From IMG/VR virus record IMGVR_UViG_3300042390_000047, positions 1 to 29,293 of that record: a stretch of 29,293 nucleotides of DNA. The stretch is one strand, 5' to 3'. This stretch comes from a virus. This document shows, in pieces, positions 9,286 through 29,293 of the stretch. Every line of letters begins with the position of its first letter. Within the stretch, counting starts at the first letter, position 1. The notes beneath the pieces were generated by a model. The model was not told the DNA's origin. It saw only the letters and a list, made by a program, of their open reading frames with translations, and ran no database searches. A program made the translations under genes and the position numbers.

Positions 9286-9902
9286 TAGGGCATGACCTCA
9301 TTGAATACAAATGATGAATCCCAACTTACTTGATCTCTAGCAAATAAACTATAACTAGGAAATTGTGTGCATATCACAGTGAATACACAGTTAGGACCTA
9401 CCCGCAAACTAACACCACTGGCGGTAGTATCTATGATTGGTCTATTGAGTGGCACGTTGTTTTGGTTAAATGCCACATCTTCTCGCACTTCGTAGACTTT
9501 GCCACTGCTGCCTAACTGTATCCAATCACCTGCACGGAATCTATATCCACTGCTGGTAGTTGGACTTGTGGTCAAAGTTAACGCAGTAGCACCTGTGCTA
9601 AAATTACAAACAAAGCCAGTAGAGTTGACCGAATCACCTTGATATTTGGCCAGCCAACTTTGACCACTGGTATTGAATTGAATAGTTCGGCTGGTAACAG
9701 TGCCATAATATGCTGAATCAGCAATGTATCCACGAATCTCTTGCCATGGAATACCATCTGGTAGTTTTACAGTAAATTTCCATGCTGGGTTGCCTCGACT
9801 CACAGCACGAACAATGCCACTGCGTGTTATTGAACTGGCAGCAATTCTTTTGTTTTCTATGCTGATTGATTCAGCATAATCTATAATCCATTGAAAGCTC
9901 AT
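9285..9902 (-). CDS. Putative distal tail (Dit-like) minor tail protein (205 aa)
   Basis: The gene follows directly after the tape measure, sharing a TAATG junction. This is the usual place of the distal tail protein that caps the tube and attaches the hub. The protein is about 205 residues, mostly beta, with motifs WIIDYAESISIENKR, RSGIVRAVSRGNPAWKFTV and RAGDWIQLGSSGKVYEV. The last is typical of a class of phage tail proteins with a small OB-like insertion. I do not see a catalytic motif. Assignment rests on position and on the GDWIQLG segment. Confidence 0.6.
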   Translation of the reverse strand: MSFQWIIDYAESISIENKRIAASSITRSGIVRAVSRGNPAWKFTVKLPDGIPWQEIRGYIADSAYYGTVTSRTIQFNTSGQSWLAKYQGDSVNSTGFVCNFSTGATALTLTTSPTTSSGYRFRAGDWIQLGSSGKVYEVREDVAFNQNNVPLNRPIIDTTASGVSLRVGPNCVFTVICTQFPSYSLFARDQVSWDSSFVFNEVMP

Positions 9903-12121
9903 TAATATCTCCCTGGTGTGCCTTTAGCACCTTGCATGGCCACAGCATGTATAAAACTTGGATCTCTGGCTATCATTGATTTGAAACTCATTGCATCTAC
10001 TGCATTGATGTTATAGGTCACAGATGTATTACCTAATCCTGCAGGCGATCCAGAAGATAACATGTTGTTAGGCAAAATGGTTCCACTAGTTTTTGGAATA
10101 AACAATTCTGGACCTTTTTCACCTACTACTGACAATTGGTTTGCTGGAATCATACCGCCAGCAGCATATCCTGGCAATCCCAATAATGCTGCACTTGCAG
10201 GTCCAGATAGATTATTATTTGACCCAACAGGACCAAATAATGAAGCAAATAAGTTTCTAGCCTGAGCACGTGCCATTTCGGCAATCATAGTGTTGACTAG
10301 ATCTTTAAAACTTAGTTTACCAGTTTTTACAAACTTAACCCAAGCATCTTCAAAGCCTGTGGTCAATGTTTGGAACAATGATGCTGCGGTATTTGCAGCA
10401 TTTCTTGTGTTTTCTAAATACTGATTATAGGCCTTGCTCCAGCCTATGTTAAAATTTTCTTGTCCTCTGATATCTAATTCTTGTTGTTGTTGTGTTAGAC
10501 CTACTCTTGCATCAATCTGTTGATTGATTTCAAATTCTTTTTGTAGTCTTTCAGCATAAGGCAAGTCTTTAATATTAGCAACTTGTTTTAATAAAGTTAT
10601 TCTTTGTTCTTCTAAATCAAACAATGCTTGTGCATTGGCTCTTTCTCTATCGGTGGCTGTTAGGTTATCTGACAAGAATTTATTTTTACGTTTTTGACTG
10701 TCTATTTGATTGTTTTGTTCAACATTTAATTGTCTAGAACTTTCAATAATGTCATTGATTCTTTTATCTTCGGCAGCCAATTCATCATTAGATTTTTGAC
10801 GCTGTGCTTCTAGTTCACTGTAAATTTTGGCATTCTGTTGCAGTCTTAGTTTAGCAACGTCATTAACAGATTTTAAATTAATCTCTTTGGTCTTGGCTGC
10901 AATTTCTAAATCTTTTTGTTCTTGACTAATCTTTTCTTTGCTGTTAATTTCTGAAATGGCTTTGAGTAATTCAGCACGGGCATTAACTTCCACAGCCACT
11001 ATATCATTGGCGCCTTTTAGTGCTATAAGTTTATTACTTTCAATTCTACTCTGTGCAATACGTTTTTCACTTTCGGCAATGGCTTTAAGTGTGGCTTCTG
11101 GAGTTGCACCAAATCCACCAGCGTCACCGTCACGTGCGCCTTCAGCCCCAGCACGTGTTCTATAACCAGCCATTAGTTTTTCTTGTTCGGCATATCTCTG
11201 TCGTTGTGCTAAAAATGCTTTTTCTTCAGCGGTCATTTGACGCTGCATCCAGTCAGGCAAATTTACTGCTCCAGGCTCGTTTGAAAATAATGGTTGCCCT
11301 GGAGCAGTTGCTGGTCTTGATGTTAAACCTTTTTTGTTTAATTCTGCTTCAGTATCTTGTCTTTTCTTTTCATAAGCGTCTATAGCTGTAAATGCTTTTT
11401 CAGCCTGCTCAGCAACGCTACCAAAGAAAGTAATAAGTGTTCTTGATAGTCTGTCACGAATGCGGTCAATTGCGTCATTGTAAGCATCAAGTTTTTTAAT
11501 GTCCTCATCAGCAACAGGATCTCGCAATGCACTTAATTTTGATAACTCAAGTTTATTAATATTTTTACCAAGAATATCTACAGCAGCTGCATAAGCCTGT
11601 TGTGTAATTTCACCACGCTGTGCTTTTTCTGTAATGTCTTGTAGTATAGCACCTGTTGGACGAATCTTACCATTAGCATCTGTAACAAATACACCTAAGT
11701 CTCTAAATGCCTGTTGTAGTTTTTCATTACCGCCAGCTGCTTCTTGAACACTTTGATTTAACTTAGATAATATTATTCTAGTATCTTCTGCTTTGCCGCC
11801 AGCAGCAATAAGACTTGTTTGAAAATTTTGTATTTGGCCAGTGGCAATGCCAGTGGCTCCTGAAATATCGCTCAGATCACCAGCAATCTGTAATGCTTTG
11901 CCACCTAAGGCAGCAAATGCTGTTGCTGCCAAACTAGCAGCAACGCCTAGTGGTCCTAGTTTACCAATAATGCCATTAATAGTATTACCCAATGGTCCGC
12001 CTACTTGACTGAGATCAGTTATGTCTTTTTTAAGGTTACCTATATCTGCACTAACAGATTTGATCTTGCCTTCACCTTCAACGGTTATTCTTAGTTTTAC
12101 ATCTTCTACTGTTGTAGCCAT
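9902..12121 (-). CDS. Tail tape measure protein (739 aa)
   Basis: The protein sets tail length and is expelled into the host during DNA injection. Residues 1-40 form a coil-like start. Residues about 48-85 are a hydrophobic Gly/Ala segment (INGIIGKLGPLGVAASLAAT), typical of tape measures. Residues 330-560 are long, highly charged coiled coil. The segment WVKFVKTGKLSFKDLVNTM near residue 615 matches the lambda gpH C-terminal domain (Tape_meas_lam_C). A final Gly-rich part has GEKGPELFIP, a motif common to tape measures. At 739 residues it predicts a tail of moderate length. An AAGGAA site precedes the start. It follows the chaperone genes and the gp10-like gene, the normal order. Confidence 0.93.
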   Translation of the reverse strand: MATTVEDVKLRITVEGEGKIKSVSADIGNLKKDITDLSQVGGPLGNTINGIIGKLGPLGVAASLAATAFAALGGKALQIAGDLSDISGATGIATGQIQNFQTSLIAAGGKAEDTRIILSKLNQSVQEAAGGNEKLQQAFRDLGVFVTDANGKIRPTGAILQDITEKAQRGEITQQAYAAAVDILGKNINKLELSKLSALRDPVADEDIKKLDAYNDAIDRIRDRLSRTLITFFGSVAEQAEKAFTAIDAYEKKRQDTEAELNKKGLTSRPATAPGQPLFSNEPGAVNLPDWMQRQMTAEEKAFLAQRQRYAEQEKLMAGYRTRAGAEGARDGDAGGFGATPEATLKAIAESEKRIAQSRIESNKLIALKGANDIVAVEVNARAELLKAISEINSKEKISQEQKDLEIAAKTKEINLKSVNDVAKLRLQQNAKIYSELEAQRQKSNDELAAEDKRINDIIESSRQLNVEQNNQIDSQKRKNKFLSDNLTATDRERANAQALFDLEEQRITLLKQVANIKDLPYAERLQKEFEINQQIDARVGLTQQQQELDIRGQENFNIGWSKAYNQYLENTRNAANTAASLFQTLTTGFEDAWVKFVKTGKLSFKDLVNTMIAEMARAQARNLFASLFGPVGSNNNLSGPASAALLGLPGYAAGGMIPANQLSVVGEKGPELFIPKTSGTILPNNMLSSGSPAGLGNTSVTYNINAVDAMSFKSMIARDPSFIHAVAMQGAKGTPGRY

Positions 12122-12132
12122 CGCTCGCTTCC

Positions 12133-12408
12133 TTATTTTAATACATTTCTAATGTATTGTTGTATATGATCTATAGTTGGTTTACTCATACCATCATTGG
12201 CTTGACTACTCCAACCCCGATTTAATCTACCAGCGTAGGCATAATCAGCATGTATGCTATCACTGCCTTGCTTACGTGTGTTTCTTTTTGCATTACCTGA
12301 GTCAACGGGCGTAATAGATTTGAAATGATTAAAAGCAACATCCAATAGTTTTTTTTGATCTAAACTTTGTTCAATCTGTTTTAATCTATTTGCAATTTCG
12401 TTGGCCAT
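12133..12408 (-). CDS. HK97 gp10-like morphogenesis protein (91 aa)
   Basis: A short protein with FKSITPVDSGNAKRNT, ADYAYAGRLNRGW and a terminal SKPTIDHIQQYI. The order TPVDSG, then YAxxLNxG, then KPT matches HK97 gp10-type proteins, which act at the head-tail joint or in tail completion. The position between the tail assembly chaperone and the tape measure is unusual for that family, which normally lies before the major tail protein. The start shares one base with the stop of the frameshift extension (TAATG), and an AAGGAG site lies 6 bases upstream. Function is inferred from a weak motif match. Confidence 0.5.
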   Translation of the reverse strand: MANEIANRLKQIEQSLDQKKLLDVAFNHFKSITPVDSGNAKRNTRKQGSDSIHADYAYAGRLNRGWSSQANDGMSKPTIDHIQQYIRNVLK

Positions 12409-12961
12409 TATGACTCCTTCGCTCGCTTCAGCATATCTAACATAGTTTCTTGACTTAACTTAGGAACAGACTTAATTCCATTTGCTTCATCATATTTTTT
12501 ATTTTCCCAAGACATCATTAAATCCATAACCATTACATCGTAGGTCGAAGCAGTGTCTCTAACATAACTTGGTAGTTGCCCATATGTTTTTGCCAATGCT
12601 CCTATGGTAATTAATTCAACTGTTCGCCAGTCGCTGGTGTCGATGTCTTGGGTTTTGATTTTCCCAAAAAATCATTAATCCTCACCAAAATAGCAAGAGT
12701 GATATCTACTGGAAAAACTTCATCCGGACCCAGCGCAGGTTTACCATCATCTTTTAAGATTAATTTACGCAGCAATTCATTTAGAAGATTACCATCTTCA
12801 CTCTGCTGTAGTCTATAAAAGTTAAAATAGGTGCTGATATCCATTTCATCCATAATGCAAAATGAAATGGGTTCACCGCCATAATTCTTAATGAGATCAG
12901 GGTCGATGATTTCTAACTTTTCAAGTTTGGGTTTTTTAGCAAATTCGCTAATATTTTTCAT
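12408..12961 (-). CDS. Tail assembly chaperone, -1 frameshift fusion (G-T type, 184 aa)
   Basis: Reading from 12961, a -1 shift at GGGAAAA (12665-12659) leaves the 116-residue frame after residue 101. It enters the frame that ends at 12408, giving 101 + 83 = 184 residues. No stop occurs between the shift point and MAKTYGQLPSYVRD-like text. The downstream frame has no ATG start of its own near its beginning; its first candidate is a TTG at 12596 with no clear ribosome site. This is the classical arrangement of lambda G and G-T chaperones, which bind the tape measure and recruit tail tube protein. The protein itself is unlike lambda's in sequence. Confidence 0.8.
12611..12961 (-). CDS. Tail assembly chaperone, unshifted product (G type, 116 aa)
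   Basis: This acidic 116-residue protein begins MKNISEFAKKPKLEKLEI and has the helical core STYFNFYRLQQSEDGNLLNELLRKLIL. Located between the major tail protein and the tape measure, it fits the G-type chaperone that coats the tape measure before tube polymerisation. The last 15 residues (SKPKTSTPATGEQLN) are encoded only in the unshifted frame. Start at the ATG 12959-12961, 5 bases after the stop of the 57-residue gene, whose AAAGGA end supplies the ribosome site. Confidence 0.8.
   Translation of the reverse strand: MKNISEFAKKPKLEKLEIIDPDLIKNYGGEPISFCIMDEMDISTYFNFYRLQQSEDGNLLNELLRKLILKDDGKPALGPDEVFPVDITLAILVRINDFLGKSKPKTSTPATGEQLN
12659..12665 (-). promoter_or_regulatory. Programmed -1 frameshift site G GGA AAA
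   Basis: The minus strand reads TTG GGA AAA TCA in the chaperone frame, so the heptamer G GGA AAA fits the X XXY YYZ rule exactly. It differs from the lambda site G GGA AAG only in the last base. About 24 bases downstream lies a small hairpin (CCAG CGA CTGG, extended by one more C-G pair across a mismatch) that could help pausing. Confidence 0.8.
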
Positions 12962-12966
12962 ATCTT

Positions 12967-13140
12967 TTAATCCTTTGTTCTTTCAATCAGTGTGTTGGCT
13001 ACAACTAATAGGAAACCTATCCTACTATTAGCCTTGTTAAGATCTCTTTGGGCACAGGCCACTTCATTACGAGCCTTGGCAAGTTCTGCTAATAAACTAA
13101 TCAGCAGTTCATCGTCTGACTTTGAATCTAGTATGTCCAT
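12967..13140 (-). CDS. Unknown small coiled-coil protein (57 aa)
   Basis: A short ORF of 57 residues begins MDILDSKSDDELLISLLAEL, continues with AKARNEVACAQRDLNKANSR and ends ERTKD. The AAGGAAG ribosome site lies 4 bases from the ATG. The sequence is strongly helical with a heptad pattern in the first 40 residues, then a short hydrophobic stretch GFLLVVANTLI. It is placed between the major tail protein and the chaperone, behind its own terminator and CTAAATAT motif. I do not recognise a family. It could be a further chaperone-type partner of the tail, but that is only a guess from location. Confidence 0.65.
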   Translation of the reverse strand: MDILDSKSDDELLISLLAELAKARNEVACAQRDLNKANSRIGFLLVVANTLIERTKD

Positions 13141-13219: not shown

Positions 13220-13735
13220 TTAGGATGTTGCCACTAGGTATTCGCCAGTCACTGTGATAGTTATTGGTGATACCCATACTGGTGCGTCTGCTGATAAAGT
13301 TGGTGCAAGACCTGTAATGTAACCTCGACCTTTTAAAACTCTGTCTGTAGATGAGTTTTCACGCATCTTAAGAGTAAAAGCAATAAAAGTCTTGTTACGG
13401 CTACAGCCTAACAAACCTTGTTCAGCAATAGTGCCGCTTTGAGCAGCAGCAAGTGTAGTGCCAAAGAAACTTGCGTCATCAACAACAATGTTCATAGACA
13501 ATGAATTTGTTGAAGTTGTAGCAATTTGTTGCTTGGCTGTAGAGTCTAGTTGACTCCATGTGAATACGTCATTGGCTGCATTAACTGTAACATCCTGAAT
13601 GGCTGGAACAGTAAGTGCTGATGCTCCAAGAGCGATTGCCGTTGGAGGATCTCCTGTGATTGTGGATGCTGACACAGTGTCAATTGATAAAACAATTTGA
13701 CTTGCTGTGCCTGGTCCTGGTGAAATGTATGCCAT
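13220..13735 (-). CDS. Major tail tube protein (171 aa)
   Basis: A 171-residue all-beta protein begins MAYISPGPGTASQIVLSIDT and has VTVNAANDVFTWSQLDSTAK, a segment with VDDASFFGTTLA, then LKGRGYITGLAPTLSADAPV and a terminal VTGEYLVATS. The pattern (an early strand, a loop with an Asp-rich test, then GRGYITGL and VxFSxxxxxTGxxxx-like close) fits siphophage tail tube proteins that stack as hexamers around the tape measure. An AAGGAG ribosome site lies 7 bases upstream of the ATG. A terminator follows it and the chaperone genes come next, the expected order for a tube protein. I rely on position more than on motif. Confidence 0.75.
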   Translation of the reverse strand: MAYISPGPGTASQIVLSIDTVSASTITGDPPTAIALGASALTVPAIQDVTVNAANDVFTWSQLDSTAKQQIATTSTNSLSMNIVVDDASFFGTTLAAAQSGTIAEQGLLGCSRNKTFIAFTLKMRENSSTDRVLKGRGYITGLAPTLSADAPVWVSPITITVTGEYLVATS

Positions 13736-25448: not shown

Positions 25449-28400
25449 TTATGCTCCTTGTAAGGTATATTCTCTGTTTTCCTCAATGATTGAGTAAACT
25501 CTGTCTTCTTCAATGATTAGATATTCTCTATCTTCGGCTGGTATCATCCAAGTCAATTTGGCATCAATGTGTATGATGTCAATCACTGTGACTGTGGCTG
25601 CAAATCCTGTTAGGCTAGCAGTGGCATTGACCACATAACTTAAACTGCCTGTCAAAGAACTTTGTGCAGTTAATGCTGCTGTGGCTTGGGTAATTCGACC
25701 ACCTAAGACCAATTCAGCACCTGTGACAATCAATGCCGCTGACAATGACTTCTTGCGTAATGCAGTGGCTGACAAAGTGCCAGCACTGGCTGTGATCACA
25801 ATCACAGTGGCAGTTTGATTGGCCTGTGCAGTCAAAGTAAACTGTGATGTTAGATCAGCCTCACCAGTGATGTTGGTAGTGCCTTCTGCAAACACTGTGG
25901 CTTCAGCAGTTAAAGTCACTGCAGACCTACGTGTTCTTACGTTAACTGCTGTTAACTGTGCTGAACTTGCAAATGAGGCTGTAACTGTGGCAGTCTTCTG
26001 AGCCGTAGCAGTCAATGTTGATTGACTATCCAGTGTGATCAATCCCTGACCAATCTTGACCACAGCAGCCAAATTACTAGCTACGGCTGAAGTAGATACA
26101 GCACTGGTTTTAATTCTCAGTATTGTGGCTGTGACCGCTGCCTCTGCACTGACACTGCTCTCTGCAGATCTAATCACAGTGACATCAGCATTGACACTGG
26201 CTGAACTAGATAACAACACTGCACTGGTTTGTATTCTCAATACTGTGGCTGTTTGACTAAATGCGGATGTTACAGCAATGACAAAATCAATAGTTCCTGT
26301 GGCTGAAGCTGACAAACTAGATTGTGCTGAGACAGCGGCTGCAAGTCCGGCAGATCTCTGCACTGCGGCTGTTTGACTAAATGCACTAGCCAAGACAATC
26401 TCGCCACCAGCAGTGACATTTACAGTCATTACAGGACTAAATGCTGAACTAATGGCTGCTGAAACTTCTACAGCTTTGATACCATCAGCACTGACAGTTG
26501 CAGTGCTGATCAATGCCACTGTGCCAGTTTGTATTCTCAACCCAATGGCTATTTGACTAAATTGACTAGATAGAGACACTGCGGTGTCTGTGACAACATT
26601 GGCTACAGAGTTAACAGTAGCCACAGATGTAGCAGTAATTGAGGCACTGGCTACAACATTGACATCAGCAGATTCAGCAAACTCGCTGGCAACAGCCAAT
26701 GCAGCATTTCTAATTCTAGAATTGTCAGCAGACAGTGATAGATTTGAAGCCAATGCCGCAGATGTGTTAGTGGTCTTGACTGCATCTATGCCTGTGGCAA
26801 ATTGTGAAGTTTGAGCACTCACTGCTTCTGCTGTTTTAACTGCTGTGATTAGGGCAGTGATCACAGCATCCATGGCCAATAGGCCTTGACCAATCTTGAC
26901 CACTGCAGCCAATTCACTGAATACAGCATCAGTGGTGATTGCAGCATCTCTAGTTCTTGAGTTGTTGGCAGTTTGACTAAATGCCGATGACATTGAACTG
27001 CTGGCAAACCTTAATATATTTCCATCAACTAAAACTGTGGCAGCACTGCTTAGATCACTGGCTAGTGATTTAATTCTTGTAACATCTGCAGTTGTTGATG
27101 CCACAGCGGTTAAACTGGCAATGCCATTAATAATCTTAGTAACTGAAACTGTCACTGTGGCAAAACCAGCATCAACAATGGCTACATCTACATTCTTAAC
27201 TGGACTTGTTGATAATGTAAATGCTGAAGTCAGTGCTGCTGTGGCAGTTTGTGTTCTTGGCAGTTGGCTGGCATCATCACTGAAGTTACTGTTGAAATGC
27301 AACAATAACTGTGTGTCAGCGTCATTGGTCCACTGTGCTGAGGGCACTGTGAAACTGCTAGTTGATGTGGCAGTCTTAAGTTCATTGGTGATTAACAGTT
27401 CATCAATGAAATATTCATTATAAGTTCTAGTAGATGGCCCACCTATTCTTAAAGGATTACTAGTGTTGTCTAACACTTTGGCCAGTGTAACTACTGATGG
27501 ACCAGTATTGGTGCTGCCACTGTTGATTCTTTGTCCGTCAATGTATAGGGCTAGGCTGGTGCCATCAAGGCTTAATCTAATGTGATACCATTGACCAACA
27601 GTCCATGATTTACCCCAATCATAATCATTAAGTGTCGCGGATCCTGAATCTTGTGTAACTTCTAAACCATTACTGTAGGTTTGTATTTGCCATGCTCGAT
27701 CATACAAAATATCTTTATTGAATACACCTAATAACTGAGCGCCATCTGCAGGATGTCTATACCAAAAATCAATAGTCTTCCATGTGTGCCAGGCTTCATC
27801 ATCAGGGAACTCAACATATGGTTGCAGTGTATCATAGATCTGCTCTATAGGCATACTTGAGAAGTTTATGCCATCAGTGCTGATTAATCCTTCACGACTT
27901 ATGCCAATCCAATATCCAGCATTGGTGTATATTGGAGGATATACTTGTCGAATATCAGTGTTAAAAGTGATTTCATTGTAGGTGCTGAAATCTGTAGTGG
28001 TTATCCAGCTTTGATTAGCCTGTGCTCCACCACAACCACCTACAAACCATCTACTGTTACCATAACTGATTGTTGGATCATAACTTGTTCCAGGTAATGT
28101 ATAACTTGAACTCCATGTGCCACTAGATCCATCGCTGGTGCTGGTCTTGACATACCCAGTGCCGCTGCTAAATCCACTAGGTGCAAATGCCATCATCCAG
28201 TCAGTGCCATTAGCACGGATATCATAGGCCCAGGTGCCTGCAGGAACCACACCTGTGATAGCAGTCCATGTTGTGCTGTTTGTTGATCTATACATTCCTG
28301 CACCAGCCGTTATAACAGTAGATCCACTAGCCCATACTGTTTTGCCAATGCCCCCGGCACCTTGCCTAAATGTCCAAGTAGATAAGTTAGGACTGGTATA

Positions 28401-29293
28401 GATATAGCCTACCCCGGGGGTTGAAATATCACCAACCATAACATATAGTCCGTTGGCATAGGTAATATCATTGGCACTAAAACTACCAGTAGCAATGCCA
28501 TGTGCTGTTCTAGTCCAAGATATGCCATTGCTGCTGGTATAAACATAGGCACCATAAGCACTGACAAACTGACCATTGATATATCTAACTTTTCTAACAG
28601 GATAGTCGCCAGTTACAGCATTGCGACTAAAATTACCTGAACCAGTGCCGTTATAAACAAAAGCAGCAGCAATGTCAAATATGAAATAATTACTGCCATT
28701 ACTGAATGGTGTAAAATAGGCATATTCATTGACAGCAGCATCAACTGACCACTTGGCACTGGCACCGCCAAATTGGCTTTGATCACTGGATATGGTTAAG
28801 TTATTATATCTGCCACCTGAATAAACTGTAGGTATGCGTCTACGACTTGCACGATTGCCCTGTGCGGTCTGTGTAAATGCACTGGCCAAACTAGCAGAAG
28901 CCAATCGTGTGCCAGTTATACTTGCTGACAAGGAACCAACAGTAGTTAGATTACTTGTAGTAGATCTAGTTACGGTTGCACTGGCAGTAACAGTGATCAG
29001 TGAATCTAATACGGCAAAACTGTTACGGAATACATCCACAGTCAATACAGGCGTAAATGCACCTGACAGTGAAACGTCAGATGATACTAACTTAGTATTA
29101 ACTGCAGAAAGAGAGAACTGTGAACTTAGACTTACTGTGGCTTCGATAAGTTTTGAAGCAGAGGTGGATTGTGTGAATGATCCAGCGATGTTGGCTGCAA
29201 AATCACGTAACTTATCTGCAGTTAGACTTTGACTGATAATCGTAGCAAGGGCAATGCTGGCACTTCTATTGGCCACAGCATTGACAGTAAACG
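25449..29293 (-). CDS. Large tail fibre protein, main part (partial at window end)
   Basis: The frame is open through the window edge and joins 1-493 to give 1399 residues. In joined numbering, residues 1-310 are Ala/Ser-rich repeats; about 336-600 is a propeller-like domain with repeats of type YINGQFVSAYGAYVYTSSNG and SWT; about 603-800 is a LamG-like lectin fold (WHTWKTIDFWYRHP, QWYHIRLSLDGTSLALYIDG, YFIDELLI); 800-1370 returns to repeats such as SAFSQTA and RIQT. The last 30 residues hold three units of the form EDREYLII/EEDRVYSII/EENREYTL. The lectin-like fold is a likely carbohydrate binder. An AAGGAG site for the next gene overlaps its end. Confidence 0.85.
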   Translation of the reverse strand, partial: FTVNAVANRSASIALATIISQSLTADKLRDFAANIAGSFTQSTSASKLIEATVSLSSQFSLSAVNTKLVSSDVSLSGAFTPVLTVDVFRNSFAVLDSLITVTASATVTRSTTSNLTTVGSLSASITGTRLASASLASAFTQTAQGNRASRRRIPTVYSGGRYNNLTISSDQSQFGGASAKWSVDAAVNEYAYFTPFSNGSNYFIFDIAAAFVYNGTGSGNFSRNAVTGDYPVRKVRYINGQFVSAYGAYVYTSSNGISWTRTAHGIATGSFSANDITYANGLYVMVGDISTPGVGYIYTSPNLSTWTFRQGAGGIGKTVWASGSTVITAGAGMYRSTNSTTWTAITGVVPAGTWAYDIRANGTDWMMAFAPSGFSSGTGYVKTSTSDGSSGTWSSSYTLPGTSYDPTISYGNSRWFVGGCGGAQANQSWITTTDFSTYNEITFNTDIRQVYPPIYTNAGYWIGISREGLISTDGINFSSMPIEQIYDTLQPYVEFPDDEAWHTWKTIDFWYRHPADGAQLLGVFNKDILYDRAWQIQTYSNGLEVTQDSGSATLNDYDWGKSWTVGQWYHIRLSLDGTSLALYIDGQRINSGSTNTGPSVVTLAKVLDNTSNPLRIGGPSTRTYNEYFIDELLITNELKTATSTSSFTVPSAQWTNDADTQLLLHFNSNFSDDASQLPRTQTATAALTSAFTLSTSPVKNVDVAIVDAGFATVTVSVTKIINGIASLTAVASTTADVTRIKSLASDLSSAATVLVDGNILRFASSSMSSAFSQTANNSRTRDAAITTDAVFSELAAVVKIGQGLLAMDAVITALITAVKTAEAVSAQTSQFATGIDAVKTTNTSAALASNLSLSADNSRIRNAALAVASEFAESADVNVVASASITATSVATVNSVANVVTDTAVSLSSQFSQIAIGLRIQTGTVALISTATVSADGIKAVEVSAAISSAFSPVMTVNVTAGGEIVLASAFSQTAAVQRSAGLAAAVSAQSSLSASATGTIDFVIAVTSAFSQTATVLRIQTSAVLLSSSASVNADVTVIRSAESSVSAEAAVTATILRIKTSAVSTSAVASNLAAVVKIGQGLITLDSQSTLTATAQKTATVTASFASSAQLTAVNVRTRRSAVTLTAEATVFAEGTTNITGEADLTSQFTLTAQANQTATVIVITASAGTLSATALRKKSLSAALIVTGAELVLGGRITQATAALTAQSSLTGSLSYVVNATASLTGFAATVTVIDIIHIDAKLTWMIPAEDREYLIIEEDRVYSIIEENREYTLQGA
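25560..27250 (-). repeat. Degenerate tandem repeats in the fibre shaft
   Basis: The segment codes for about 20 imperfect units of roughly 28 residues with the skeleton ASxFSQTAxxxRIxTxAVxLxSxA. On the DNA level, TTTGACTAAAT with GCTG or GCAG before it recurs (for example near 26250, 26370, 26550 and 26970). Such repeats change fibre length by recombination, and they are also where the assembly was cut open. Confidence 0.75.
29156..29281. repeat. Terminal direct repeat, right copy
   Basis: Identical to 1-126; see the left copy. The last 12 bases of the window (29282-29293) correspond to 127-138 with three differences. The unique circle is therefore 29155 bases if the tip is dropped. Confidence 0.9.

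Follow-up and report, generated by a model that had tools for sequence, protein, structure and literature searches.

Among tailed phages, production of two tail assembly chaperones, G and GT, by frameshifting is widely conserved (PMC5009743). Lambda produces approximately 30 copies of gpG for each gpGT; the tape measure protein is bound by the G part and the tube subunit by T, and mature virions contain neither chaperone (PMC5009743). In E. coli, the site G_GGA_AAG has a strong tendency to shift (PMC5009743), and in phage TP901-1 GGGAAAG is the slippery site, which is required for the production of gpT (PMC4493119). The sequence analyzed here, referred to as the window, is a whole viral contig of 29,293 bases (IMG/VR record IMGVR_UViG_3300042390_000047). 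From its sequence we consider that it encodes a lambda-type G/GT tail assembly chaperone pair expressed by programmed -1 ribosomal frameshifting, with a probability of roughly 95%.

Results

Frame anatomy and slippery site

The locus consists of a zero frame, a heptamer close to its 3′ end, and an extension in the -1 frame.

12611..12961, minus strand: zero-frame ORF G, 116 aa, putative tail assembly chaperone (ATG at 12961, TAA at 12613-12611)
12659..12665, minus strand: slippery heptamer G GGA AAA, codons 100-101 of G, in the phase X XXY YYZ
12408..12659, minus strand: T, the -1 frame extension, 83 codons and a stop (TAA at 12410-12408)

Codons 98-102 of G are TTT TTG GGA AAA TCA, which puts GGGAAAA (12665-12659) in the X XXY YYZ phase, and the heptamer is thus in the correct phase of the 116-residue frame, as had been stated in the original prediction from the sequence alone. 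T, read from 12659, begins with ATC AAA ACC CAA GAC and is free of stops up to its terminal TAA, so the open -1 frame that had been claimed to run to 12408 was found as described. Predicted products of 116 aa for G and 184 aa for GT (G codons 1-101 plus the 83 codons of T) were obtained again on recomputation, exactly the sizes given earlier, with a predicted junction of ...NDFLGK on the G side and IKTQDIDTSDWR... on the T side. Heptamers of the form X XXY YYZ occur in phase 23 times in the 29 minus-strand genes of the window; the -1 frame stays open for more than 60 nt beyond the zero-frame stop only at those of the G/T site.

Neighboring genes

The structural genes of the window follow the order terminase, portal, scaffold, major capsid protein, two unidentified genes, a 171-aa protein, G/GT, a 91-aa ORF, tape measure protein, and distal tail protein. 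Those nearest to G and T are as follows.

13220..13735, minus strand: probable tail tube protein, 171 aa, assigned by position; approximately 50-70% identity in relatives, conserved together with G
12133..12408, minus strand: 91-aa ORF located 3′ of T and ahead of the tape measure gene; weakly matched by tail completion/Neck1 families of PHROG
9902..12121, minus strand: tape measure protein, 739 aa, matching Pfam Tape_meas_lam_C (E = 4e-17) and several PHROG tape measure families

A PHROG search of the 171-aa protein gave no match, and by profile search it weakly matched a 'putative tail protein' from a pelagiphage; its position together with this match suggests that it is the tube subunit. 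The locus had been placed between the tube protein and the tape measure gene. This holds for the downstream side, where the tape measure gene is found, except that the 91-aa ORF intervenes, while the upstream neighbor is a probable tube gene by position and the weak profile match. The ATG of the 91-aa ORF at 12408 shares a base with the stop codon of T (TAATG), and the location is an unusual one for a tail completion/Neck1-like gene. Another small ORF of 57 aa (12967-13140, minus strand), predicted from translation only, separates G from the probable tube gene. Elsewhere in the window, a 1275-aa protein (25449-29276, minus strand) carries a laminin-G/concanavalin-like domain, and had no tblastn match in annotated phages and none in PHROGs.

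Identity of the G and T proteins

Neither G nor T, searched alone against Pfam and PHROG, gave anything above threshold, and when they were searched together with their relatives only weak, mostly spurious matches were returned; a few relatives faintly matched tail assembly chaperone models, namely Phage_TAC_13 (best E of 0.03) and phrog_2624 (E of 0.25). A sequence-profile search of the PDB with G as query returned no match, the annotated phage collection contained no match to either protein, and the bacterial genomes searched yielded no relative of G.

The AlphaFold model of G (pLDDT 76) had as its best PDB match the HK97 tail assembly chaperone 2ob9, a weak match by Foldseek (E of 0.24); VIA superposed 94 residues with an rmsd of 4.9 Å, 13% identity and a Z of 5.2, a value which, as the tool warns, can reflect a common arrangement. 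YqbN (3klu) was also among the PDB matches, and the top match in BFVD, at 60% identity, carries the name tail assembly chaperone. This annotated homologue and the weak fold match of the model support the assignment of G as a putative tail assembly chaperone. The model of T was helical with low confidence (pLDDT 68), and its best viral structural matches were uncharacterized proteins of uncultured phages.

Conservation of the frame arrangement in relatives

IMG/VR was scanned with G, with T, and with alignments of each, which gave 151 loci containing both, corresponding to 72 distinct sequences, with G identities of 42-70% to that of the window. Since the search patterns were degenerate back-translations of protein, the choice of nucleotides inside the heptamer was not selected by the search. 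T was in the -1 frame relative to G in all 72 distinct relatives, and GGGAAA was in phase in every one of them, as GGGAAAG in 67 and as GGGAAAA in 5. The original prediction had proposed that related phages would keep the heptamer and the open -1 frame while silent sites vary, and would be contradicted by relatives that lose the heptamer; both elements were retained in 72/72, no relative was without the heptamer, and other silent sites varied freely.

Codon-level analysis was carried out on 51 representatives with less than 90% nucleotide identity to each other (median pairwise identity 58%). Plain residue identity of the overlap was 0.53, 0.48, and 0.47 in the three frames and did not discriminate between them, and the analysis therefore turned to conservation per column and to the choice of codons. 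By per-column conservation, the -1 frame was kept from its first codons, with Q4 present in 46 of the 51 representatives and W11, I17, and G20 (Trp, Ile, and Gly) in 50 each. The zero-frame tail 3′ of the heptamer was variable among relatives, ranging from 4 to 18 codons.

Codon choice at the heptamer was far more restricted than in the rest of the gene. Gly100 was encoded by GGA in 51/51 representatives, compared to 17% GGA among the other Gly codons of the gene, and Lys101 by AAG in 47/51, compared to 38% elsewhere. The residue before Gly100 was Leu in 50 of 51, always encoded by TTG (39) or CTG (11), codons which make up 22% elsewhere. The single exception was a Val encoded by GTG, so that the base G preceding GGA was retained even with a changed amino acid. 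Mixed codons were seen in the same 51 representatives at further conserved columns of Leu, Gly, Pro, and Arg. This pattern indicates that the silent positions of the heptamer are under selection, although probability figures calculated for it treat the lineages as independent and thus exaggerate its significance; the frame anatomy in the window and its maintenance by selection among the relatives are direct observations.

Search for a stimulatory RNA structure

Folding of the 89 nt downstream of the site in the window gave a z of -0.31 and revealed no stimulator. RNAalifold, applied to the 51 heptamer-anchored sequences, found no conserved structure upstream or downstream, a result with which a pseudoknot or lineage-specific structures are still compatible.

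Comparable loci in the nearest isolates

The nearest isolates, by identity of the major capsid protein (39-50%), were the Pelagibacter phages HTVC111P, HTVC112P, HTVC026P, and HTVC202P, and phage DSL-LC06. All five resemble the window in that the tape measure gene is preceded by a chaperone-like ORF with a slippery site in phase and a -1 extension, but the site, A AAA AAG or A AAA AAC, forms the very end of that ORF, and their T is 56-61 aa long. Homology between these chaperone-like ORFs and G of the window was not detected (hhalign probability 1.8%). In the four pelagiphages the -1 extension ends at the start of the tape measure gene. The G-like ORF of HTVC111P (MN698245, 9399-9931) and HTVC112P (MN698246, 9335-9864) ends with A AAA AAG followed by a stop, and a perfect 7-bp inverted repeat, AGCGACC-N9-GGTCGCT, is located shortly 3′ of the site; the -1 frame is open for 59-60 codons, exactly to the tape measure start, which makes this a candidate frameshift. 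In HTVC026P (9396-9904), HTVC202P (9522-10030), and DSL-LC06 (9298-9818) the ORF finishes with A AAA AAC and is extended in the -1 frame by 56-61 codons. None of the five records annotates the -1 extension, and those of HTVC111P and HTVC112P have a reverse-strand ORF annotated at its position instead.

Discussion

The reading of the locus as a programmed frameshift chaperone pair, as originally proposed, was supported by the arrangement in 72/72 relatives, by codon selection at the heptamer, and by the lack of a conserved separate start for T. The last point bears on the most serious alternative, namely that T is an independent gene starting within the -1 frame, at TTG 12596 or ATG 12533, by coupling or from a separate ribosome site, with the heptamer there by coincidence. 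Some features of the window could be taken in this way: TTG 12596 is preceded by ATAGGAGCA, with AGGAG at 12603-12599, 2 nt upstream, and the top structural-database matches of T are short, separate, uncharacterized proteins. The distance of 2 nt is, however, a poor spacing. ATGs are present in the -1 frame of the window, the first of them being codon 43 at 12533, but across relatives the first ATG moves between codons 16 and 49, 3′ of the strongly conserved residues Q4, W11, I17, and G20, and the silent positions of the heptamer are invariant across relatives. No separate start of T was conserved across relatives, where neither TTG 12596 nor ATG 12533 was kept as a start; in particular, a functional start near 12596, which had been named as evidence against frameshifting, finds no counterpart in the relatives, in which the TTG is not conserved. 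The earlier statement that the downstream frame lacks an ATG and a ribosome site of its own was therefore too strong for the window, which has ATGs and an AGGAG near TTG 12596, while its conclusion stands because none of these is conserved. We regard independent translation of T as very improbable.

Even less weight can be given to the two explanations that dispense with a ribosomal event. Expression of GT by transcriptional slippage would draw on the short run AAAA within the window's heptamer, but most relatives have AAAG, with just three A, which argues for selection of the tandem tRNA-slip pattern GGGAAAG rather than of a long run. Runs of 3 G and 3-4 A are also shorter than is typical for polymerase slippage, and this explanation is highly improbable. 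A single continuous gene split by an assembly or sequencing error is equally hard to accept: a single-base error could mimic the pattern in one contig, no tool result favored it, and it was rejected on finding the identical arrangement in 72 distinct contig regions from many metagenomes.

Under programmed -1 ribosomal frameshifting, most ribosomes would complete the 116-aa G, and a minority would slip one base back on G GGA AAA, both tRNAs re-pairing on GGG AAA, to give the 184-aa GT. We infer slipping at the heptamer in this virus, and its rate, from the sequence. The binding roles of G and T in this virus are taken by analogy from lambda, according to which many copies of G and a few of GT would coat the tape measure protein, and T would recruit the tube subunit so that the tail polymerizes to the right length.

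This kind of system is well known and is found in many tailed phages; here it occurs in uncultured siphoviruses whose putative chaperones gave no above-threshold match to Pfam or PHROG models. A further suggestion, to which we give slightly less than even odds, is that the chaperones of these uncultured siphoviruses form a family unrelated in sequence to those already described, with GGGAAAG fixed as the slip site without a conserved RNA stimulator. If so, it would be mainly the heptamer and the host lysine tRNA that determine how much of each chaperone is made relative to the other. The 51 diverged sites provide a clean set in which the heptamer stands out as fixed. For annotation, G and T should be joined here, and T is omitted from the records of the nearest isolates, the pelagiphages.

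Compared to described systems, the locus shares with lambda gpG/gpGT the relative order of an upstream tail gene, G/GT, and the tape measure gene, as well as a slippery GGGAAA near the 3′ end of G followed by a -1 T extension. It differs from lambda in that no sequence family match to G or T was detected in Pfam or PHROG, the T part has a length of 83 aa, the heptamer of the window reads GGGAAAA (most relatives having GGGAAAG), and the 91-aa ORF intervenes between T and the tape measure gene. The HK97 chaperone (PDB 2ob9) is the top solved-structure match of the G model, a weak one at 13% identity. Lactococcal phage TP901-1 is a different phage of a different host, but the GGGAAAG at the 3′ end of its gpG (PMC4493119) is the very site found in most relatives of the window.
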